From a virus, in the IMG/VR virus record IMGVR_UViG_3300037327_000024, positions 1 through 47,197 of that record: 47,197 nt of DNA. One strand, 5' to 3'. The first letter of the stretch is position 1; the number at the start of each line of letters is the position of its first letter. The notes beneath the pieces are model-generated. The model was not told the DNA's origin. It saw only the letters and a program-made list of their open reading frames with translations, and made no database searches. Made by a program: the position numbers and the translations under genes. Below are positions 3,058 through 32,084 of the stretch, one piece after another.

Positions 3058-3170
3058 TAGTAGTATATCTAAAGGATACTCTTAATAGTAACTCTTAAGA
3101 TATACTCTTTAAGAATACTCTTAAGGGGTTTCCTTAGGATCAGTATAACGTTGATCTAAAAACCTGTCAA
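3058..3170. repeat. 113-bp perfect inverted repeat, left copy
   Basis: Base-by-base comparison shows 3058-3170 is the exact reverse complement of 26422-26534. The repeat carries a complete promoter pointing left and the downstream leader with three CTCTTAAG-type motifs. Such identity between non-coding sequences 23 kb apart implies recent copying, gene conversion or strong selection. Confidence 0.97.
3142..3170 (-). promoter_or_regulatory. leftward sigma-70-type promoter
   Basis: On the minus strand a perfect TTGACA (3165-3170) and TATACT (3142-3147) are 17 bp apart. It lies inside the inverted repeat and would drive the zinc-finger gene at 2863 and perhaps the leftward genes beyond. Confidence 0.85.
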
Positions 3171-3259
3171 GGACTATTTACATCTATTTGTTAAATAGTT
3201 AGTTCTATGCCTTAGGGGGTACTCTTAAGAGGGCTTATAAAGATTATTCTTAATAAGTG

Positions 3260-17839: not shown

Positions 17840-17972
17840 ATATACACTAGATCCGATTTTTGTCAGGGTACTTTTGCTCGTTGCTCGTATAAAAGATAAC
17901 TATAGGGAAACTCTTAAGACCTCTTATCCCCCAAGAGTGTTCTTGAGTTTCTCCCTTCACACCTCCCCCTTC

Positions 17973-18537
17973 AAAATATCCTCTGTAAGCCCTCCTTATC
18001 AGTAAGACACACCATAGCATATAATTAAAGAGATAACCCCTTAGAGAGCTTCTCAGGAATCCTCAGCATATCCCTAGAGACTACAATAAACTTAATTAGT
18101 ATAACAATACTAAGAACAATAAGTCCTCCTCAGGATATTCTAAGGCCTACCCCCCTGTACTACGTACACCACTTCCTCTTGATAATCAAATACTTAACTG
18201 GGTTTTTATATCTAAAATACCTAAGTCATTCCTAAAAGTTCTATTGTAAAATATCAACGTTTAAAAATATCCTAGGAGATGCCCTCTAAAAAAGTACTCT
18301 AAAGTATCTATGCTGTCTAAGAATTTTCTAAAATAGGATATGCTAAAACAGTCTAAGCCCTAGGATCACCCCTACAGAAAATATCAAGGGGGCTATCTAA
18401 AGGAGTAACTCTAAAAGAGATGTCTCAAGGTGATGCTCTAGAGGCCTTGCTGTGGGGGAGATTGGAAGGATTCTGTATTGGAGTGATTAACAAGTACCCC
18501 GCCACGATTTCCCTGTCTATAACTTTTCTAAAATATC
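17973..18537 (+). repeat. five dispersed copies of AAAATATC
   Basis: Exact copies at 17973-17980, 18248-18255, 18264-18271, 18378-18385 and 18530-18537, all in the same orientation. Several are followed by CNNNG. Spacing is irregular, so they are weaker than true iterons but could be protein-binding sites. In AT-rich DNA some of this could be chance. Confidence 0.4.
18156..18168. repeat. inverted repeat TGTAC-TAC-GTACA, copy 1
   Basis: Perfect inverted repeat with a three-base centre. The same 13 bases occur again at 19212-19224, where the arms extend by one base (TTGTAC-TAC-GTACAA). Two exact copies in one non-coding region suggest an operator or initiator-binding site. Confidence 0.45.
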
Positions 18538-18571
18538 ATAGACGTTAATAGTATAACCTAAGAATGCAACT

Positions 18572-18588
18572 TGGCATGGTCTTTGCTT
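18572..18588 (+). promoter_or_regulatory. sigma-54-type promoter match 1
   Basis: TGGCAT-GGTCT-TTGCTT matches the -24/-12 consensus TGGCACN5TTGC with one change and exact spacing between GG and GC. No gene starts close downstream, so any product would be RNA or read further into the non-coding region. Confidence 0.5.
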
Positions 18589-19036
18589 AAGGATAATCTA
18601 GGGTAACACTCTAAATGATGCTATCTAATAGATGCCCTCAAAAGTAGGCTATCAAATCACGCTGAATAGTTATAACTAAAAGAGTACTCTAAAAGAATAA
18701 TGTTATAAGTAATGCCTTGATAGTGTAGCCCTCATGTGATCACTCAAATGGTCACTTATCAGATATCATACCTTTATGTTCCACGCTGAGAATTGCATAT
18801 ATTCACTCATTCTTGCATAACTCCTCTACAGCCCGCATTCTTAGAAACTCTTATGCAGTATTTATGCAGTGTTCCACGGAATAGCATCCCTTGGAATAGC
18901 CCTGTAAGCTCCACCACTGATAGCAGACCCCTTAAGCACGTCGTTATATGGGTATATCTTGCATATGCTCTCAGGGAGCCTTACAGATTTTTTGAGATTT
19001 TATTATTTAAGATTATTTTTGAGGATTCTGACAAGT

Positions 19037-19053
19037 TGGCACGCGGGTTGCTT
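19037..19053 (+). promoter_or_regulatory. sigma-54-type promoter match 2 (perfect)
   Basis: TGGCAC-GCGGG-TTGCTT is a full match to the sigma-54 -24/-12 consensus with correct spacing. It points right, into non-coding DNA that ends at the hairpin 19413-19430. It would need RpoN and an enhancer-binding protein from the host or from elsewhere in the phage genome. Confidence 0.6.
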
Positions 19054-19210
19054 AACACTCCTTAACTAAATTCTATAGGTTAGGCTCTTTAATACTTCAC
19101 TATCAACCCACTACCTGAGCATCTATCTTTAAGAGTACTCTTATGGACTGCTTATTTAAGATCCCTCTTATAGATTAACCACCTTTAAGATTACTCTTAT
19201 ATATGTGATC

Positions 19211-19225
19211 TTGTACTACGTACAA
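19211..19225. repeat. inverted repeat TTGTAC-TAC-GTACAA, copy 2
   Basis: Six-base arms around TAC. Shares 13 bases with the copy at 18156-18168. Lies 160 bases right of the perfect sigma-54-type site. Confidence 0.45.
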
Positions 19226-19405
19226 AACTACTATTAATAATTAACCCTTTGCCTTTTAAATTATTCTAATTATAAATTGAGTAATCTTAAGATTAACCCT
19301 TAAGCATAACCTTAATAATTAGCTATTCTGTATACTATTTGAGAGTGCCATTTAGAGCGCCTTAATACCACCTTTACAGCGTCTTTATACTAATTTGATA
19401 CACTA

Positions 19406-19430
19406 ACAAAAAAGCCCCATTTAAGGGGCT
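19406..19430 (-). terminator. rho-independent terminator for the minus-strand block
   Basis: On the minus strand AGCCCC-TTAAAT-GGGGCT is followed by TTTTTT, a strong terminator, 20 bases after the stop of the last minus-strand gene (19451). The same hairpin core recurs at 19999-20015. Confidence 0.85.
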
Positions 19431-19450
19431 ACAGGGTCTTAAGGGTCTTT

Positions 19451-23651: not shown

Positions 23652-24065
23652 CTAGTAATAAACCCTTTTAGGGTTAGCGGCATAATACATGCCACGCTGT
23701 AGGCTGTTCCACTTATCTTGTGAGAGTTTAAGATCGTGGAGTTCTTCGGTTGTTCTTAAGTTATTAACTAACCTTGAAGCGTGGGTTTTTCTATACGTAG
23801 TGTAAAATTCACCCTCGTACCAATAGCCGTAGACTATTGTTTTTCTCTCGTAGACCCCTTTTAATTCATTAAAGATAGCATTAAAAAAAGGCTGGTATTG
23901 TTTGTTATAACGGTTTCTACCCGTTGGGGTCTTCTCTTCAAGAACTGAAGAAACAAACAATTGATACCCAATAAATACATCACCTATAGGTAATTCTGAT
24001 AGTTCGTAACAATCGTGAATAATTTCATGTAATTCTGTAGTTAGATCTGTAATTGATTTTTTCAT
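23652..24065 (-). CDS. hypothetical protein (137 aa)
   Basis: ATG 24065 overlaps the stop of 24065-24289. Helical start (MKKSITDLTTELHEIIHDCY), then an aromatic, basic C-terminal half (VYGYWYEGEFYTTYRKTHAS). No family recognised. Its reading frame contains a partial sigma-54-like TGGCATN5ATGC on the same strand, judged chance. Confidence 0.55.
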   Translation of the reverse strand: MKKSITDLTTELHEIIHDCYELSELPIGDVFIGYQLFVSSVLEEKTPTGRNRYNKQYQPFFNAIFNELKGVYERKTIVYGYWYEGEFYTTYRKTHASRLVNNLRTTEELHDLKLSQDKWNSLQRGMYYAANPKRVYY

Positions 24066-24289
24066 TATAAAGCCCCTTCAATGTATGATTTAAATTTACT
24101 AACAGAATTTTCCATAGTATTGCTATGATCCACCCCATCAACTGCAAAGCGTTGAAGCCAAGTATTAAAGCCCTTTATGATAACTTTTTTACCTTCTACA
24201 TTACCTACAAAAAGATACCAATCATTTTTATTTTCAAGGCGCTTTTTGTTTATAAGGGCTATAAAGCCTTTTTTTGTATGATTGCTCAT
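24065..24289 (-). CDS. hypothetical protein (74 aa), first of the block
   Basis: ATG 24289 (MSNHTKKGFIALINKKRLEN). Basic, with Trp-rich centre and a helix at the end. The upstream region is AT-rich and lacks a strong Shine-Dalgarno. It heads the minus-strand block. Confidence 0.5.
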   Translation of the reverse strand: MSNHTKKGFIALINKKRLENKNDWYLFVGNVEGKKVIIKGFNTWLQRFAVDGVDHSNTMENSVSKFKSYIEGAL

Positions 24290-24398
24290 ATGTAATCCGT
24301 TTTCGTTTGTTTCTAAGGAGGTGCAAACAATACGCGGATCGTTATTAATAACAAGTGTTTTGTAAAATTATTTTTATTTAATTTATTTTTAAAAAAGC

Positions 24399-24427
24399 TT
24401 GTAATCGGTTTTCTTTTTTGTTATCTT
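24399..24427 (+). promoter_or_regulatory. sigma-70-type promoter upstream of the hairpin RNA region
   Basis: TTGTAA (24399-24404), 17 bp, TATCTT (24422-24427), preceded by TTTTTAAAAAAGC. The AAAAAAGCTTG lead-in matches the minus-strand promoter region near 20415. Confidence 0.45.
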
Positions 24428-24506
24428 ATTAATGCAGGAACGAAAAGCCGACAGGCTTTAAGATACTGGAGTTCAAAACACGGGACGATCCCGATCATAA
24501 AAAAGT

Positions 24507-24523
24507 TGGCACAAAAATTGCTA
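24507..24523 (+). promoter_or_regulatory. sigma-54-type promoter match 3 (perfect)
   Basis: TGGCAC-AAAAA-TTGCTA has every consensus base and correct -24/-12 spacing. A rho-independent terminator lies about 105 bases downstream with no gene between them, so the likely product is a small RNA. Confidence 0.65.
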
Positions 24524-24532
24524 TAGCAAACG

Positions 24533-24640
24533 CCATGCCAATCTGTCATAACTAAATCGTATATCTTATACCTAGATCGCCTTAAAAATCTCATTTATTA
24601 TATTTATTATTCTCCAAGAAAGATCCGTCTTGGGATTTTT
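24533..24640 (+). ncRNA. candidate sigma-54-dependent small RNA
   Basis: Predicted from a perfect -24/-12 promoter (start expected about 12 bases after the GC of the -12 element) and a terminator ending in TTTTT at 24640. The body is AT-rich with only a 6-codon frame (MPICHN), so it is probably not coding. Similarity to known RNAs cannot be judged here. Confidence 0.45.
24613..24640 (+). terminator. rho-independent terminator
   Basis: CCAAGA (24614-24619) and TCTTGG (24628-24633) form a perfect stem with an eight-base loop, then GATTTTT. Points right and closes the candidate small RNA. Confidence 0.8.
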
Positions 24641-24790
24641 CTGCTTAAAGTTTTCTGTATAGAAATTACAATATATATTTCAAATGAAATCACTATTTAG
24701 ATCTAAAATGAAAAGTCTATCGAGATACAGTTTTGGATGAAAATGCTCTTTGTATAAAAATCTAAGGAGGTTTAGTGGAGAAGGTGTAGG

Positions 24791-24819
24791 AGAGCTTACC
24801 TGTAGGGTAGATAAGCTCT
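24791..24819. other. long perfect hairpin
   Basis: AGAGCTTA (24791-24798) and TAAGCTCT (24812-24819) pair over eight bases around 13. No T run follows on either strand, so it is not a standard terminator. It lies 52 bases past the end of the minus-strand gene set at 24871. Confidence 0.5.
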
Positions 24820-24870
24820 TGAGGGGTTATACAGGAAGGCTAACTCTGTATCTTGGATTTAGTATTAGTA

Positions 24871-25071
24871 TCATGATTGTATATTCTTAAGTTCTTTATG
24901 TGGACAATCCTCTTCATGTGTATATTGCTCACCACAGAATACGCAGTTATACTCATCCCATTCGTCTACATATGTTTGAGGCACTTTCTTTAGTAAGTCT
25001 TCAAGGTAGGCTATTCGCTTGTCTCTGGCCTCTAAAAGCACTTCATACTCTTCTGAGCTTACAGTCATCAT
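24871..25071 (-). CDS. small CxxC protein (66 aa)
   Basis: ATG 25071 overlaps the stop of the upstream gene (ATGA) and follows GGAG. Helical start (MMTVSSEEYEVLLEARDKRI), then CVFCGEQYTHEEDCPHKELK, where C-x2-C and C-x-H look like a zinc-binding knuckle. The end EDCPHKELK is repeated in the gene at 25283. Unknown function. Confidence 0.6.
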   Translation of the reverse strand: MMTVSSEEYEVLLEARDKRIAYLEDLLKKVPQTYVDEWDEYNCVFCGEQYTHEEDCPHKELKNIQS

Positions 25072-25286
25072 AGCTGCCACTCCCACTCTAAGGAGCAATC
25101 AAACTCTTTAGCGCACTTCTTAAAGCGTTTTAAAGACAACCCCTCTAGACCTATCACACCCTCCCCGTTATAAAATAATACTAACATTCCATCTACCCAT
25201 CCTACAGAGTTAAAGCCTACAGTCATACCCTCATGAGTAAGTGAGTAAACTGATTTATCTAGCATCTTATTTTTTTCTAATTTCAT
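25068..25286 (-). CDS. hypothetical protein (72 aa)
   Basis: ATG 25286 behind AAGGAGATACAATT. Beta-rich centre (MTVGFNSVGWVDGMLVLFYN), helical end. Overlaps neighbours on both sides by 4 bases. No family recognised. Confidence 0.6.
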   Translation of the reverse strand: MKLEKNKMLDKSVYSLTHEGMTVGFNSVGWVDGMLVLFYNGEGVIGLEGLSLKRFKKCAKEFDCSLEWEWQL

Positions 25287-25525
25287 AATTGTATCTCCTT
25301 AAGTTCTTTATGTGGACAGTCCTCTGGGTGTTCATCTGCCTCTATATCAATATTATTCATTAATCTTGACTCCGCTCCATCACCTGTAAGACTTCGGCTA
25401 TGGTGTATGGTAGTACCGTTATGTTGTGCGTATCCGTAGTAATATCCATTTTGCATATCTTCAGGGACTTCTACAAACAAATGGAAACCTCGATACTTAG
25501 TGTAAGAATACAATTCATTATTCAC
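25283..25525 (-). CDS. hypothetical protein (80 aa)
   Basis: GTG 25525; the ATG close by is out of frame. Tyr- and His-rich, ending PEDCPHKELKEIQL like the gene at 24871. The shared end continues at DNA level for about 35 bases, pointing to a local duplication. Confidence 0.55.
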   Translation of the reverse strand: MNNELYSYTKYRGFHLFVEVPEDMQNGYYYGYAQHNGTTIHHSRSLTGDGAESRLMNNIDIEADEHPEDCPHKELKEIQL

Positions 25526-25526
25526 T

Positions 25527-26309
25527 CTATACGCCCCTTATTAATAGTTTAAGCTGTTCTGAGCTGTGCGACAAAAAGAAATTAGCTCTAGCCGTTAAGG
25601 AGTTAAAAGTTACTTTATTAAAGCGCCCCAGTACATCTACATACTTGACTAGACCTTGACTATCAATTGTTATCCCATACCGAGTATTGCCTTTGATTAA
25701 AGGCACACCGCCATCTGCAATCTGGGCTGATCTAAGCTCTTGCTCAAGTATTAGGTATTCCATGTATTGATCACATGAGTCTTTGTCATAAAATAGATAC
25801 CCCATTTCAATGGCGGCACAGTCCCATGAATCCCCGTCACACTTGACCCTACTCACCGCGCCTGTACAGCTAGGTGAAAAACACTTTATTCCTACATATA
25901 AGCCATAAACACTCATAACCCTACCAAACCTAGGCTCTGGAGCGTCTAAGACAGCCTGATAAGCTTTTATGTCAGCTTCTAACTTAGAGATGTCATCTAA
26001 GTGAGTATTGCGCCTAGCTTGTAGCTCTTTCATTAGCTCTTTAGTAGTCTCTTTGTCAACAGGTACAGGCTGTACACTTTGGTTTTTTTCAATTAAGGCT
26101 ATCATACCTACGTAAGAGATTACTTTATAAGTTTCTCTCCCTTTCCAAGTTCCTGTATACCCCCTATCATCAAAACCTATGAAACTTTCAAAGGGAAAGT
26201 AGTCAAAAAAACGGATTTCCTTTTCCACAACACCTTCCATCAGTGTTTGTAGTCGCGTCTTCTGGTCTTGGTCTAAATATTTTATCCTACAAACTGTACT
26301 TGTTATCAT
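25527..26309 (-). CDS. hypothetical phage protein (260 aa)
   Basis: ATG 26309 (MITSTVCRIKYLDQDQKTRL) after GGAGATAAAC, first gene behind the leftward promoter at 26336-26364. Contains a central coiled-coil-like helix (ELMKELQARRNTHLDDISKL) and a Cys-rich part (CFSPSCTGAVSRVKCDGDSW) that may bind metal. Likely early protein, function unknown. Confidence 0.65.
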   Translation of the reverse strand: MITSTVCRIKYLDQDQKTRLQTLMEGVVEKEIRFFDYFPFESFIGFDDRGYTGTWKGRETYKVISYVGMIALIEKNQSVQPVPVDKETTKELMKELQARRNTHLDDISKLEADIKAYQAVLDAPEPRFGRVMSVYGLYVGIKCFSPSCTGAVSRVKCDGDSWDCAAIEMGYLFYDKDSCDQYMEYLILEQELRSAQIADGGVPLIKGNTRYGITIDSQGLVKYVDVLGRFNKVTFNSLTARANFFLSHSSEQLKLLIRGV

Positions 26310-26335
26310 GTTTATCTCCTATCTAGTTAGCCTTA

Positions 26336-26364
26336 AGTATTGCATCTCTAATAAATAGAGTCAA
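26336..26364 (-). promoter_or_regulatory. leftward sigma-70-type promoter
   Basis: On the minus strand TTGACT (26359-26364), 17 bp, AATACT (26336-26341) preceded by TGC. Corresponds to the promoter at 3260-3288 in the inverted copy. Drives the 26309-24871 genes. Confidence 0.8.
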
Positions 26365-26421
26365 GTCTTATTAAGAGTAATCTTAAATAATGTTACATTA
26401 CAAGTATTTGCTAAATAGGGG

Positions 26422-26450
26422 TTGACAGGTTTTTAGATCAACGTTATACT
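26422..26450 (+). promoter_or_regulatory. rightward sigma-70-type promoter in the repeat
   Basis: TTGACA (26422-26427), 17 bp, TATACT (26445-26450). Same promoter as the leftward one at 3142-3170. It would feed the 26.7-47 kb operon with a long leader containing CTCTTAAG-type motifs. Confidence 0.85.
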
Positions 26451-26534
26451 GATCCTAAGGAAACCCCTTAAGAGTATTCTTAAAGAGTATATCTTAAGAG
26501 TTACTATTAAGAGTATCCTTTAGATATACTACTA
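26422..26534. repeat. 113-bp perfect inverted repeat, right copy
   Basis: Exact reverse complement of 3058-3170, beginning with the TTGACA of a rightward promoter. Confidence 0.97.
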
Positions 26535-27621: not shown

Positions 27622-27748
27622 CGAAGTTAAAACCTCAAGAAACTTAAAAAGGTTTGTTGTTGTAGGTGTCATATGTGCAGTATCCGTCTTCCTCCTATGC
27701 GTATGGGGAATTGTAGTTATCGTAGAGCTATTAGGAGTTATGTTATGA
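27608..27748 (+). CDS. 46-aa single-span membrane protein
   Basis: TTG start seven bases after AGGAG. Basic N-terminus (MSKNNEVKTSRNLKR) followed by a long Val/Leu/Ile-rich membrane helix (residues 17-45). Ends in an ATGA overlap with the next gene. Probably an inner-membrane micro-protein. Confidence 0.5.
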   Translation: MSKNNEVKTSRNLKRFVVVGVICAVSVFLLCVWGIVVIVELLGVML

Positions 27749-28062
27749 GCAATCCATTATTTATAGTAGGTGAAGAGGTAATCTTACAGAGCAAAGATCG
27801 TCCTCAACTTAATGGGGAGTACTCTGTGGATGCTGTTAGCACCGCAGATAAGATCACTATCTGTAGACAGACAGGAGAGTATTATGACTTCATTGACGAA
27901 GATAAAGACTCTGTAGGCTACATGTTATATCCTATTATCTTAGACGATGAGGGATTTGAGATTGTCTGGAATGAGTCTGCACTTAGAAAGAAGCATAAAC
28001 CTTCTGATCAATCTCTTGAAGAGCTTATTAAAGGGCTTAACCAAGAAGTAGTGGCGTTGTAA
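27745..28062 (+). CDS. hypothetical protein (105 aa), SH3-like
   Basis: ATG 27745 behind AGGAG. MSNPLFIVGEEVILQSKDRP and the beta-rich centre suggest a small barrel; the tail NESALRKKHKPSDQSLEELI resembles tails of other phage early proteins. Unknown function. Confidence 0.6.
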   Translation: MSNPLFIVGEEVILQSKDRPQLNGEYSVDAVSTADKITICRQTGEYYDFIDEDKDSVGYMLYPIILDDEGFEIVWNESALRKKHKPSDQSLEELIKGLNQEVVAL

Positions 28063-28238
28063 TGGAGAGCCTCGAACAAGCATTTAAAAGACTTTGTTCT
28101 GAGGAGGGGCGTAAATACCCCTTTACTTTCTATTTTAATAGGTGTAGGCTCAAGGTTACTGAAGACTCAACTTATGAGTCAGTCGGTAGAGATTACTACA
28201 ATAATGTAGACTTATCACAATTCGGAGGATGGAAATAA
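28062..28238 (+). CDS. hypothetical protein (58 aa)
   Basis: TAATG overlap with the gene before and after. MESLEQAFKRLCSEEGRKYP; aromatic, basic centre. Weak ribosome-binding site, so coupling is likely. Unknown. Confidence 0.45.
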   Translation: MESLEQAFKRLCSEEGRKYPFTFYFNRCRLKVTEDSTYESVGRDYYNNVDLSQFGGWK

Positions 28239-28384
28239 TGCAACAGAAATCATTTGCAGATTGGGTAGAAGATAACGAAATAGTCATACAAGAGGAGGCT
28301 TTGGAAAACGATGAAACATTTGATGATGCTTGTAACAGGATGTATCTCGACTATGAGCAAAGTTGGTTTGAACTGTATGTATAA
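28238..28384 (+). CDS. hypothetical acidic protein (48 aa)
   Basis: ATG 28238 after GGAGGATGGAAATA. Very acidic (MQQKSFADWVEDNEIVIQEE). The net negative charge could suit a DNA mimic, but it is short and unassigned. Confidence 0.5.
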   Translation: MQQKSFADWVEDNEIVIQEEALENDETFDDACNRMYLDYEQSWFELYV

Positions 28385-28449
28385 TGTTGCAATAGAAGAG
28401 TTTCAACTTAAAATCTCTAAATTTAAGGTAAACCAACAAGGTAACAAAA

Positions 28450-28626
28450 ATGCTTAGATCAACTCAGCAGTTACACTCTAAAAAAGCCATCTTAGGTGAT
28501 TTTGTAAGAAAGCTTACTAAAGACTTGACAGAAGCCAGAGATGAGATTAGAGTTATAAACTCAGCTATTGAGTCAGTCAATAGAGATAATCAATTAGATA
28601 TGTTCGGGGAGGATACTAATGTCTAG
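28450..28626 (+). CDS. hypothetical helical protein (58 aa)
   Basis: ATG 28450 behind AAGGTAACAAAA. Charged helix KLTKDLTEARDEIRVINSAI, end DNQLDMFGEDTNV; the LDMFG piece resembles clamp-binding peptides (QxxLxxF-like), which would suit a protein acting at forks, but this is speculative. Confidence 0.5.
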   Translation: MLRSTQQLHSKKAILGDFVRKLTKDLTEARDEIRVINSAIESVNRDNQLDMFGEDTNV

Positions 28627-28768
28627 TCATGAGATGATAATACAGCTAAGTGTTAACTTTCAAGCAGCCCTTGAAGCAGGAGAGTACCTTCTAGCCAGAA
28701 AGATAAACGCTAAGATTAATCAAGTTATACATTATGCAACTAAGATACCAGTGGAGGTTACAGCATGA
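28619..28768 (+). CDS. hypothetical protein (49 aa)
   Basis: ATG 28619 behind GGGGAGGATACTA, overlapping genes on both sides. MSSHEMIIQLSVNFQAALEA; probably a two-helix protein. Unknown. Confidence 0.5.
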   Translation: MSSHEMIIQLSVNFQAALEAGEYLLARKINAKINQVIHYATKIPVEVTA

Positions 28769-29124
28769 ATTATGAGTTAGCAGATGGTAGTTGGAGTTTA
28801 GACTATGAGATTGGAGATCAGTTTATATACATTGGTAATAGTTTAGGAGAGACACTCAAGTTTTCGGAAAATGACTGTTCATGCCATCCCTACTTTCTCT
28901 GGGGTGATGATAAATACCCTTATCCTTGTGCTTGGGAGCGTCTTATACTAAAAAAACGTAATAAGACAGCTAAGGAAGTTAAGACACTTACAGTAGAGAC
29001 CCAAGATAAGGTATCTTCCTTGCATGGTGATATTCAAATGCTAGTGGCTAGCATTAATATTGAGGCTTTAAATAAACTACTCAATAAGTTAGAAGAGATA
29101 TACCAAGAGGAGTTACGTTCATGA
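28765..29124 (+). CDS. hypothetical protein (119 aa)
   Basis: ATGA-coupled. N-terminal beta barrel-like part (WSLDYEIGDQFIYIGNSLGE, CAWERLILKK) followed by a coiled-coil helix. Same general design as 27745. Unknown function. Confidence 0.6.
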   Translation: MNYELADGSWSLDYEIGDQFIYIGNSLGETLKFSENDCSCHPYFLWGDDKYPYPCAWERLILKKRNKTAKEVKTLTVETQDKVSSLHGDIQMLVASINIEALNKLLNKLEEIYQEELRS

Positions 29125-29507
29125 GTACTAAACAAGGTTTACTATTAAGTATAACAGCTGTAATAGCTCAAGGAGAGCAGAGTGTAAACGAAGAAGGAGG
29201 TTGCATGTACAGAGGAGATGGTGGATGTAAGTGTGCGATTGGCTTCTTAATACCAGATAAAAAGTATAATCAAGAAGAAATGGAGGGGGAAAGTGTTAGC
29301 GATACTAGTATTAAACAAGTAATCCTCGAATCATATAAGACGGACTGTTTATGGATAAGTCATCTAGAAAATTTACAGGCTTGCCATGATGATTGTAATA
29401 ATTTAGATGGGTTTGTAAGCCAATTTAAAGAAAAAATTAGAGAGGCTGTTGAGGAAAGTGGCCTACCCAAGTATTGCCTACAAGCACTTGAGGAGAAGTC
29501 ATCATGA
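29121..29507 (+). CDS. hypothetical phage protein with C-x-Y-R-G-x4-C-x-C-A-I-G motif
   Basis: Contains CMYRGDGGCKCAIGFLIPD, a motif of a common small phage family, also seen in altered form at 10876. ATGA coupling on both sides. 128 aa, mostly helical after the motif. The Cys may bind metal. Function unknown. Confidence 0.65.
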   Translation: MSTKQGLLLSITAVIAQGEQSVNEEGGCMYRGDGGCKCAIGFLIPDKKYNQEEMEGESVSDTSIKQVILESYKTDCLWISHLENLQACHDDCNNLDGFVSQFKEKIREAVEESGLPKYCLQALEEKSS

Positions 29508-29698: not shown

Positions 29699-31510
29699 AT
29701 GGCAGAGCTATCCCACCATGAAGGATGCCCTAAGTGTATAGCTAAGGGCAAAGACAGGGGAAAAGATAACTTAGCAGTGTACGTTGACGAGAGCGCACAC
29801 TGTTTTTCCTGTTCTTATACAATACCATCTAAAGAGTGGTTAAAAGCTAATGGAGATAAGTCTAGAAGTAAGAGTTATCTAAATGAAGAAGAAGAAGAGG
29901 AGTTAGACGTAGGCGCTATGGCAGAAGATTTTAATTTATCTAATTGGAAGACTATTAGAAAGAAGTGTACACATAACCCTGAAGGCTGGAGAGGACTGAC
30001 TAAGGAGACTTGTCAGTTTTTTGACGTTATGCATGAGTATAACACATCATCAGGGGACTTAGTTAAGCAGTACTATCCTTGTACGAAGGCATACAGCATC
30101 TCAGGAGTGCGTTGGAGGTTTAAAGAACTCAATGACAAGGGTAAGAAGGATTATGGCTCTAGAGGCACTACAGGAGCTGCCTCAGACCTACATGGACAGT
30201 GGAAGTTTAAGAATAGTAACAGCAAGGTTGTAGTGATCACTGCTGGAGAGATTGATCAGATGTCAGGACACCAGATGTTTGAGCTAACTCGTAAGAAAGA
30301 CTACGAGGTTACTCCTATTGTGACTCCCACATCGGGAGAAGGCAGTTCAGCTAAACAGTTACAGGGTCAGTATGAGTGGTTAGATACATTCGAGAAGATC
30401 ATCCTGTGTTATGACAATGATGAGGCAGGACAAGCTGCGATAGTTAAGGCTGTAAAGGTGTTACCTCGCGGTAAAGTCTACGTTATGAAGCTAACCCTTA
30501 ATGACACTAATGATTACTTAATGGCTGGCAGAGAGAAAGAATGGATCAACGCTTTTTGGAAAGCAGAGAGATATATCCCAAGTGGAATACTAGGTAGTGG
30601 AGGCATAAGAGATAAGATGTTAGATTATGTAGTGATACCTAAAATAACATTACCTCCTTTTATGTATAAACTACAAGATTTAATGGCTGGAGGTATACCC
30701 TTAGGTGTTATAGTGGCTATGGGCAGTGCAAGTGGGACTGGTAAGACAACAATAGTAGATGAATGTAGCTATTATTGGTATTTTAATAGCCCTCATAAGC
30801 TAGGGGTGTTAACTTTAGAAGCGGACTCTGCCCAGTATGGGATTAATTTATTATCTAGACATATTGGTGAGAAGATAAACCTCATAGAGTCCCCAGAAGA
30901 CAAATTACTATTCTTAAATAGGCCAGAAGTTAAGAAAGCCTCCGATGAGTTGTTCTTAGATGAGAATGGTCAAGATAGGTTCTTTCTAGTGGAAGAGAGA
31001 GATGGGGATATTAATACAGTTATGGACCTTACAGAGAACTTGATTATAGCTTGTGACTGTAAGGTGATAGTGTTCGATCCTGTGAGTGATGTACTGGAGG
31101 GACTTAGCAACGAAGAGCAAGCTATGTTTTATAAGTGGATGAAAGGTATGGTTAAGGACTACACTGTAACTTTTATACTCATCTCCCATGTTAGGAAGAA
31201 CTCAGGGGGTCAGAAAGCTAATTCTACAGGGGCTGAATTGCATGAAGAAGACTTCTTTGGCAGCGGTAGTATATTTAAATCTTCCGCTTGTAATCTACTA
31301 TTCTCTAGAGATAAAGAAGCTGAGAATGAGTTTGAGAGGAATGTAACTAGAATGAAAGCTACTAAGATAAGGTGGACAGGTAGGACTTCTCCTATAGCAG
31401 GGGAGTATTACTACGATAATGCTACTCATACGATGTTCGACAAGCATAAGTGGTTAGAAGAGCACTCCTCAGATCCTAAAGATAAGAAATTTAGTATGAA
31501 AAAGGTATAG
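29699..31510 (+). CDS. T7 gp4-type primase-helicase
   Basis: Bifunctional replicative protein of 603 aa. The N-terminal zinc ribbon has C10, C13, C35 and C38; the TOPRIM region carries the Glu of TAGEID and the DxD of LCYDNDEAG. The C-terminal RecA-like helicase has Walker A GSASGTGKTT (K349), DPVSDVLE as Walker B-type strand, and LISHVRKN as the conserved His/Arg motif. Domain order and size match T7 gp4. It would unwind DNA ahead of the polymerase and make primers. The tail ends KKFSMKKV, sharing FSMK with two other replication proteins. RBS AGGAG. Confidence 0.95.
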   Translation: MAELSHHEGCPKCIAKGKDRGKDNLAVYVDESAHCFSCSYTIPSKEWLKANGDKSRSKSYLNEEEEEELDVGAMAEDFNLSNWKTIRKKCTHNPEGWRGLTKETCQFFDVMHEYNTSSGDLVKQYYPCTKAYSISGVRWRFKELNDKGKKDYGSRGTTGAASDLHGQWKFKNSNSKVVVITAGEIDQMSGHQMFELTRKKDYEVTPIVTPTSGEGSSAKQLQGQYEWLDTFEKIILCYDNDEAGQAAIVKAVKVLPRGKVYVMKLTLNDTNDYLMAGREKEWINAFWKAERYIPSGILGSGGIRDKMLDYVVIPKITLPPFMYKLQDLMAGGIPLGVIVAMGSASGTGKTTIVDECSYYWYFNSPHKLGVLTLEADSAQYGINLLSRHIGEKINLIESPEDKLLFLNRPEVKKASDELFLDENGQDRFFLVEERDGDINTVMDLTENLIIACDCKVIVFDPVSDVLEGLSNEEQAMFYKWMKGMVKDYTVTFILISHVRKNSGGQKANSTGAELHEEDFFGSGSIFKSSACNLLFSRDKEAENEFERNVTRMKATKIRWTGRTSPIAGEYYYDNATHTMFDKHKWLEEHSSDPKDKKFSMKKV

Positions 31511-31511
31511 T

Positions 31512-32084
31512 ATGAAAATGATATTTGGTAAAGGTACAAACGACTTAGAAGGAGAATCCTCCTCTATAGCCTACACTACTTGGCATAGTATGTTAAGGAG
31601 GTGCTACAGTGATCTATATCAAAAAAGAAAGCCCACTTATAAAGGTTGTAGTGTGAAAGAGGAATGGATGCTTTTTTCTGTATTTAAATTATGGTTTGAC
31701 AAAAACTATATGATAGGTTGGGCTTTAGATAAAGATATACTATTCCTATATAATAAGTTATACTCTGAGGGTACTTGCTGTTTTGTACCCGCAGGGTTAA
31801 ACACATTCTATAGTCATTTATATAGAGTCAAGAAAGATGGAAACCCTTTAGGGGTTTACTTTAAGAAAAGTAATAAAAAGTACGTAGCTCAAGCATCTCT
31901 GATAACTCCCGACGGGAAGAGAGGCTCAGGACACCTACTTATTTCTGAATCCCTTGAAGATTGTGTTAAGGTCTATAAAGAGCATAAAAAGAAGGCTTTA
32001 CTTGAGATGGCAGACTCCTATAAGTCGGTCTTAAAACCTGAGGTCTACAACGCCCTAGTTAATTTTAAATGGGAGGTCTTATGA
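31512..32084 (+). CDS. putative homing endonuclease-like protein with AP2 domain
   Basis: Residues 17-100 carry the AYTTWxxMxRRC, SVKEEW, LDKDIL and TCCFVP pattern shared with the gene at 17369. Residues 115-165 (NPLGVYFKKSNKKYVAQASL onward) form an AP2 DNA-binding domain, as in phage homing endonucleases. It sits between primase-helicase and polymerase, overlapping the latter by 4 bases. No HNH catalytic triad is visible, so cleavage is unproven. Confidence 0.7.
   Translation: MKMIFGKGTNDLEGESSSIAYTTWHSMLRRCYSDLYQKRKPTYKGCSVKEEWMLFSVFKLWFDKNYMIGWALDKDILFLYNKLYSEGTCCFVPAGLNTFYSHLYRVKKDGNPLGVYFKKSNKKYVAQASLITPDGKRGSGHLLISESLEDCVKVYKEHKKKALLEMADSYKSVLKPEVYNALVNFKWEVL

Follow-up and report, generated by a model that had tools for sequence, protein, structure and literature searches.

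Several bacterial small RNAs, among them Qrr of Vibrio, GlmY/GlmZ and CrcZ, depend for their expression on sigma-54 (RpoN), whose promoter has the consensus TGGCAY-N5-TTGCW with an exact spacing. Transcription in virulent phages is usually attributed to the host sigma-70 polymerase, to a sigma factor encoded by the phage or to a polymerase of their own, and the literature searched, which lacked most subscription papers, gave none that dealt with sigma-54 promoters in such phages. Two small RNAs, sRNA1 and sRNA2, have been described in phage PAK_P3, one in a 200-bp gap and one between two tRNAs, and no mention of sigma-54 was found in the available portion of that report (PMC4933390). PAK_P3 infection is reported to raise the host rtc RNA-repair operon (PAK_4493-4499) nearly 80-fold, and deletion of rtcB left plating unchanged (PMC4933390). 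The RNA-repair operon of Salmonella is RpoN-dependent and RtcR-activated, and its signal requires a prophage region (PMC9879122). Stranded RNA-seq of infection by the Rheinheimera phage barba18A (BioProject PRJNA644242), in which reads were counted for CDS alone, reportedly sorted the genes into two expression classes that were unchanged between rich and poor medium (PMC9305737).

Here, we analyzed a locus in a stretch of phage DNA of 47,197 nucleotides (IMG/VR record IMGVR_UViG_3300037327_000024; hereafter, the window) that an earlier note had proposed as a regulatory small RNA gene, and a direct reading of the sequence located all of the elements named in that note within 24399-24640. Like Qrr, GlmY/GlmZ and CrcZ, the locus would be expected to give a short noncoding RNA that starts at a -24/-12 promoter and ends at an intrinsic terminator. 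Unlike them, it is phage-borne, its promoter is palindromic, a sigma-70-type promoter would read through the -24/-12 element, and it has no Rfam family match at the gathering score. The Rfam search that the earlier note had suggested returned only three tRNAs (2194-2494) at or above threshold in the window, with no known family for 24399-24640, where permissive thresholds gave sub-gathering chance matches. CRISPR-repeat mimicry, a candidate suggested by the hairpin shape, was rejected, with no CRISPR family among the Rfam matches listed. Like sRNA1 and sRNA2 of PAK_P3, the window candidate would be a small intergenic RNA of a virulent phage from the same wider group; the PAK_P3 RNAs, however, lie outside the gap that holds the order of promoter, GGAG-AAACA motif and -24/-12 element and thus at a different locus.

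The window phage is virulent and is kin to Barbavirus, Myoalterovirus V22 and the PAK_P1/PAK_P3 group. Its primase shares 51% identity with that of phiPsa374-type Pseudomonas phages and its ribonucleotide reductase 67% with that of Rheinheimera Barbavirus. Genes for an RNA ligase (phrog_968) and a polynucleotide kinase-phosphatase (PF25109) are present as well. The record starts with a perfect 85-bp direct repeat (1-85 and 85-169), possibly an assembly end effect.

The noncoding gap and the elements within it

The locus lies in a gap at 24290-24870 that is noncoding according to the ORF lists and is flanked by the minus-strand genes 24065-24289 and 24871-25098; the block 24300-24838 within it shows low divergence from the closest relative, L002 (IMGVR_UViG_3300022822_000103). 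This relative is a mosaic with mostly 82-98% DNA identity to the window, and it carries the block at 94-95% identity with an extra gene inserted on each side. Scans of viral contigs for proteins and DNA patterns returned L002 as the sole other carrier of the block, a blastn search of the window gap against phages and plasmids gave no match, and a scan of genome contigs for the primase found none; a 20-mer matching five Pontibacter genomes among the genome contigs was judged to be chance. The two phages differ at 20/530 sites in 24300-24838 and at 3/223 in 24300-24522, compared to 35/256 four-fold sites in seven neighboring genes (Fisher, 1.6e-6 and 2e-7, respectively), and 75/528 four-fold sites differ across all 11 genes compared. 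Recombination could explain this low noncoding divergence, because some segments differ by only 0-3%, as is the case for the genes at 27673-29507. The duplicated coding tails at 24871-24913 and 25283-25325, which end in CPHKELK-I-Q, belong to neighboring genes.

Reading of the sequence revealed no usable start with a ribosome site in 24432-24641, and a 57-amino-acid minus-strand ORF at 24421-24594 is interrupted in L002 by an in-frame TGA; the earlier note had described neither a ribosome-binding site nor a useful frame between the -24/-12 element and the terminator. We considered that a short translated ORF or an antisense transcript could account for the stretch, given the presence of that minus-strand ORF and of a 9-codon frame (MQERKADRL) that starts at 24432, where the RNA is predicted to begin. 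However, there is no Shine-Dalgarno sequence, the minus frame is stopped in L002, and in Barba8S and RYC offsetting indels maintain the short frames but not their amino acids. We regard this explanation as very improbable. Shine-Dalgarno-like strings, AAGGAGGTG and AAGGAGGT, occur in the noncoding DNA at 24317-24326 and 24763-24771, each as part of a small inverted repeat and neither followed closely by a useful start codon.

The sigma-70-type promoter claimed upstream is present on the plus strand at 24399-24427 as TTGTAA (24399-24404), a 17-nt spacer and TATCTT (24422-24427) with an extended -10 (TGn), and its predicted start is at about 24434-24436. It was unlisted in a 9-of-12 scan because only 8/12 consensus bases match; it is a below-threshold -35/-10 pair aided by the extended -10 and by an A/T-rich, UP-like stretch on the same strand (24363-24398) that aligns with the Barba8S gap. 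Elsewhere in the window, 3058-3180 and 26412-26534 form an inverted duplicate of 123 bp with 97.6% identity that carries a near-consensus TTGACA-17-TATACT promoter.

Both upstream hairpins described earlier are present on the plus strand and fold, with a z score of -3.0 for 24432-24500 (2/200 shuffles equally stable). Hairpin 1 (AAAGCC-GACA-GGCTTT, 24444-24459) has its sole L002 difference, at 24450, in the loop; hairpin 2 (CGGGA-CGA-TCCCG, 24481-24493) is identical in L002; and a further small hairpin (GTATA-TCT-TATAC, 24559-24571, plus) carries two L002 changes, both in the loop. The plus-strand terminator-like hairpin at 24613-24640 consists of a stem (24613-24619/24628-24634) followed by an A and by TTTTT at 24636-24640, and L002 retains it, with a change (A24635>G) that may allow one more C-G pair. 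The earlier note had called this terminator clean. The hairpin and U-run are there, but the structure is modest (-7.6 kcal/mol) and within the shuffle range: when the 700-nt region was shuffled 25 times, at least 11 shuffles contained a more stable structure, and a scan of 5 kb gave three terminator-like sites where 2.1 were expected. From the promoter and the terminator, a long noncoding RNA of about 206 nt (24434-24641, plus) is predicted, and a short sigma-54 RNA of about 109 nt (24533-24641, plus) would share its end.

Sigma-54-type elements and the 36-bp palindrome

The -24/-12 element at 24506-24522 (plus; predicted start, about 24533) reads TTGGCAC-N5-TTGCT and is identical in L002; it matches the sigma-54 consensus at the exact spacing, which bears out its earlier description as perfect. 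We scored such elements over 13 positions with GG and GC fixed, and both this score and the GGAG-AAACA motif described below were defined post hoc from the window, with relatives scored at unchanged sigma-54 thresholds. The top scores in the window were 13/13 at 19036-19052 (plus) and 12/13 at 18571-18587 (plus), both within the 1.6-kb gap at 17840-19450, followed by 12 for the 24506 element and 11/13 for a minus-strand element facing it, TTGGCATGGCGTTTGCT, at 24525-24541. Shuffles of the window (n = 100) gave means of 0.08 at score 12 and 0.37 at score 11 and none at 13, and scores of 12-13 were confined to the 5-nt spacer when spacers of 1 to 11 were tried. The exact string TGGCAC-N5-TTGC occurs twice in the window, the other copy being at 19037, compared to a shuffle mean of 0.04, and 0/100 shuffles reached two.

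Across 15 phage records (1.42 Mb) that are not independent of each other, TGGCAY-N5-TTGCW gave 34 matches, about 27 of them distinct once palindrome partners, the ortholog in L002, one copy in a terminal repeat and a duplicate record resembling Barba19A are removed, whereas the reversed pattern gave one match and the N4 and N6 spacings three each in the same records. At least one match was found in 10/15 records, including phiPsa374 (6), J2-1_QLiu (5), G008 (2) and Shewanella 1/40 (1), and the pattern was absent from the other five, namely, the Vibrio phages RYC and helene and three other relatives. The stricter TTGGCAY-N5-TTGCT was found in 1/12 relatives searched, L002. Tandem -24/-12-like elements a few bases apart were also observed in L059 (MF988720, about 82105) and L049 (KJ018211, about 138010). 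As a sequence pattern, the sigma-54-type motif is beyond chance and statistically firm, and its function as a sigma-54 promoter is putative. The sigma-54 activator domain PF00158 was found in 0/7 phage records, some of them fragments, compared to 14/14 control genomes; a phage-encoded activator would be unnecessary, and one from the host would suffice. The start of the Rfam narK RNA model (RF03032), GGCACA-N4-UUGCU-AAAGCAA, resembles the -24/-12 element and the inner palindrome, but the match reaches 15.2 bits (E = 2.7) against a gathering score of 43.2 and looks like a common sigma-54 consensus.

Upstream of the -24/-12 element, at 24468-24481 on the plus strand, lies the motif GGAGTTCAAAACAC, of the form GGAG-N2-4-AAACA. 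This post hoc motif occurs within 60 nt upstream of a -24/-12 element in the window, L002, PAK_P1 and PAK_P3 (4/32 distinct sites upstream and 0/32 downstream on the same strand, with 0.0009 expected per flank), and V22 has AAACAC alone at the upstream position.

The plus and minus sigma-54-type elements are the two halves of a 36-bp palindrome (24506-24541), TTGGCA-N6-TTGC-TATA-GCAA-N6-TGCCAA, which was absent from the earlier description of the locus. A sigma-54 promoter needs no palindrome. The 34-bp outer palindrome, TGGCAY-N22-RTGCCA, is present in 4/15 records (the window, L002, V22 and PAK_P1). Four palindrome bases differ in L002, where the plus -24/-12 element is intact and the minus element lacks its -12 GC; among 81 four-base change sets, only the observed one creates a perfect 12-bp palindrome, and it ranks 15/81 for stability on the plus strand and 79/81 on the minus strand.

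A rival reading, which we consider unlikely, is that the -24/-12-like motif and palindrome are not a sigma-54 promoter but an operator to which a DNA-binding protein of the phage or the host attaches, such as one that regulates the nearby promoters. The four boxes, spaced by roughly one helical turn, would be suited to a dimer or tetramer, dyads occur in the window and PAK_P1 and, in the outer arms, in V22, and several sites lie near sigma-70-type promoters. The perfect 12-bp palindrome of L002 points the same way, but it is offset by 2 bp from the outer one, so a concentric operator is broken in that phage, and template switching could also create a palindrome. Most sites, moreover, are single and asymmetric with a free linker, and they fit the sigma-54 consensus and spacing.

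Read on the minus strand, the palindrome folds as a 9-pair stem with an inner hairpin followed by TTTTTT at 24499-24504 (-12.5 kcal/mol; equaled in 2/25 shuffles). This is the top terminator-like site of 24200-24900 and, therefore, a genuine rival reading, in which the palindrome would mainly be an intrinsic terminator for the minus-strand genes at 26309-24871 and any plus-strand RNA would be incidental. We consider this improbable, given that the site lies about 330 nt beyond the last gene, that the L002 changes rank so low for minus-strand stability, and that the exact -24/-12 match and the single sites elsewhere would be left unexplained.

Matching gaps in related phages

All four sites of the window lie in two gaps, 17840-19450 and 24290-24870, and the corresponding gaps of related phages also contain sigma-54-type elements. 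In Barba8S (NC_048188), 3/3 sites are in the matching gaps 30485-31750 and 25939-26415, whose order and side relative to the primase are as in the window; at a score of at least 11, there are four sites compared to a shuffle mean of 0.62 (maximum of 3 in 60 shuffles), and 3/4 are in the gaps (P = 4e-5). In barba18A (NC_048189), the Barba8S gap recurs at 25295-25845 with 99.8% identity, and a 1.3-kb gap lies beyond it. Alteromonas phage V22 (NC_048847) has 2/2 sites in gaps at 63506-63964 (459 nt) and 69366-70986 (1,621 nt). Of seven sites in PAK_P1 (NC_015294), three lie in the gap at 55193-55816, one lies in 68700-69226, and three are within annotated coding sequences; a tRNA suspected by eye in the PAK_P1 gap was not supported (ARAGORN, 0). 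The RNA-seq-based annotation of noncoding RNAs in PAK_P3 (NC_022970) places no small RNA inside the matching gap 50571-51080, and the antisense RNA as16 (51063-52000, minus) only touches its edge.

The promoter region also shows similarity to Barba8S. When 24355-24432 was compared with 1,090 Barba8S windows, the top match was the matching gap on the correct strand, where TTGTAA-18-TATACT with TGn is found, and 10/2,000 shuffles equaled its score. Promoter-like sequences 5' of the GGAG/AAACA motif were identified by eye as TTGCAT-17-TATACT in V22, TATAAT in PAK_P1, TTGACA with a weak -10 in PAK_P3 and the above TTGTAA-18-TATACT in Barba8S. The -24/-12 element of Barba8S is upstream of its sigma-70-type promoter, whereas that of the window is downstream. 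Barba8S and Vibrio phage RYC carry a comparable module, with a TATACT promoter and GGAG-N-Y-AAACA, the Barba8S copy being in the matching gap; unlike the window locus, this module has no -24/-12 element downstream (RYC has none at all), and its RNA body is not detectably similar to that of the window. The promoter and RNA segments of Barba8S and RYC are 75.6% identical (E = 7e-4; 6e-5 for other Barba records against RYC). The common portion comprises the promoter and about 60 nt (L035, 2512-2588, in RYC; L033, 26110-26195, minus, in Barba8S), is unannotated and does not keep a reading frame, and this segment is a candidate mobile phage RNA. A match to RYC was also seen at 2604-2671 of the window.

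Conservation of the RNA body is undetectable by sequence comparison outside L002. The stretch 24430-24505 ranked about 850/1,090 against Barba8S windows, and the similarity of the RNA core was not significant in any of four comparisons (shuffles reaching the score: V22, 415/1,000; PAK_P1, 135/1,000; Barba8S, 470/1,000; RYC, 58/1,000). For the stretch from promoter to element, 0/500 shuffles reached the score with V22 and PAK_P1, where the scores take in the shared palindrome, compared to 7/500 with Barba8S and 61/500 with RYC. The covariance model R1 recovered its own two members, and next, at E of at least 0.11, a coding-looking stretch of L014 and two minus-strand matches at the same place. 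The earlier note had looked to conservation of the hairpins among relatives; they are seen conserved only in the close relative L002, within the block of 94-95% identity, so conservation lends the proposal weak support. Its regulatory RNA reading retains the noncoding gap, the promoter similarity and the enrichment of sigma-54-type elements, but not a conserved RNA body or a strong terminator.

The elements themselves, the enrichment of the motif, its exact spacing and its recurrence in the matching gaps are observed features of these genomes. The terminator and the weak -35/-10 pair, taken alone, are at chance level, and one could imagine that promoter- and hairpin-like strings had simply come together in A/T-rich intergenic DNA. 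The enrichment, the spacing specificity and the matching positions across genera disfavor such a chance assembly, which we regard as extremely improbable.

The larger gap at 17840-19450 is a noncoding, repeat-rich region of 1.6 kb in which the words AAATATC/TCTAAAA show a strand bias and two sigma-54-type sites occur. Its counterparts of 1.3 kb in Barba8S and 1.6 kb in Alteromonas V22 share the word, and the strand bias of AAATATC in these large gaps is 5:0 in the window, 8:0 on the matching strand in Barba8S and 5:1 in V22. An origin is one possible role for this gap, and a long noncoding RNA is another.

Proposed regulatory model

The locus probably makes a noncoding RNA. From the arrangement of its elements, we infer transcription, the use of sigma-54, an activator and a task for the RNA; exact antisense matches of at least 11 nt numbered four within the phage, none of which was judged meaningful. 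The model that we favor, and which we consider about evenly balanced between right and wrong, is that of a noncoding transcription unit with an RNA of about 206 nt from the sigma-70-type promoter and one of about 109 nt from the sigma-54 promoter once a host activator is switched on. The host polymerase, carrying the main sigma factor, would initiate at about 24435 at the extended -10 promoter, and its structured product of about 206 nt would terminate at the 24613-24640 hairpin. Within this long RNA lies the putative -24/-12 promoter for the sigma-54 polymerase of the host, which takes the form of the 36-bp palindrome. An active host enhancer-binding protein would allow the short RNA of about 109 nt to be made from the sigma-54 promoter; with none active, sigma-54 polymerase that is bound but silent could obstruct the longer transcript. 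Results that speak against this model are the absence of a small RNA from the matching gap in the PAK_P3 annotation, the failure to find an activator domain in the seven phage records searched, the RNA body without detectable conservation outside L002, the chance-level terminator, the five records that lack the motif, the different order of elements in Barba8S and the unchanged expression classes of barba18A genes. By analogy with the induction of rtc by PAK_P3 and with RpoN/RtcR control in Salmonella, RtcR is a possible activator, assuming that RtcR drives the RNA-repair operon in Pseudomonas.

The recurrent sigma-54-type element in gene-free gaps suggests, on the basis of sequence, a shared phage tap on host stress control. 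Tentatively, and with considerable doubt, we propose that the group comprising Barbavirus, Myoalterovirus, the PAK_P1/PAK_P3-like phages and the window lineage keeps host sigma-54 promoters in noncoding loci as a tap on damage or stress. Silent sigma-54 polymerase on the palindrome would then block the early sigma-70 RNA as long as no activator is present, and host RNA broken during infection could turn on RtcR or another activator and switch the locus to the short sigma-54 RNA. Alternatively, the many sites could titrate sigma-54 polymerase away from host stress genes. If this proposal is true, conserved, spacing-exact sigma-54-type promoters in the noncoding loci of virulent phages would represent a new layer of control. 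Phage gene expression would thereby be tied to stress activators of the host, RtcR being one example, and there would be a concrete reason to re-map RNA-seq sets in which coding genes alone were counted.
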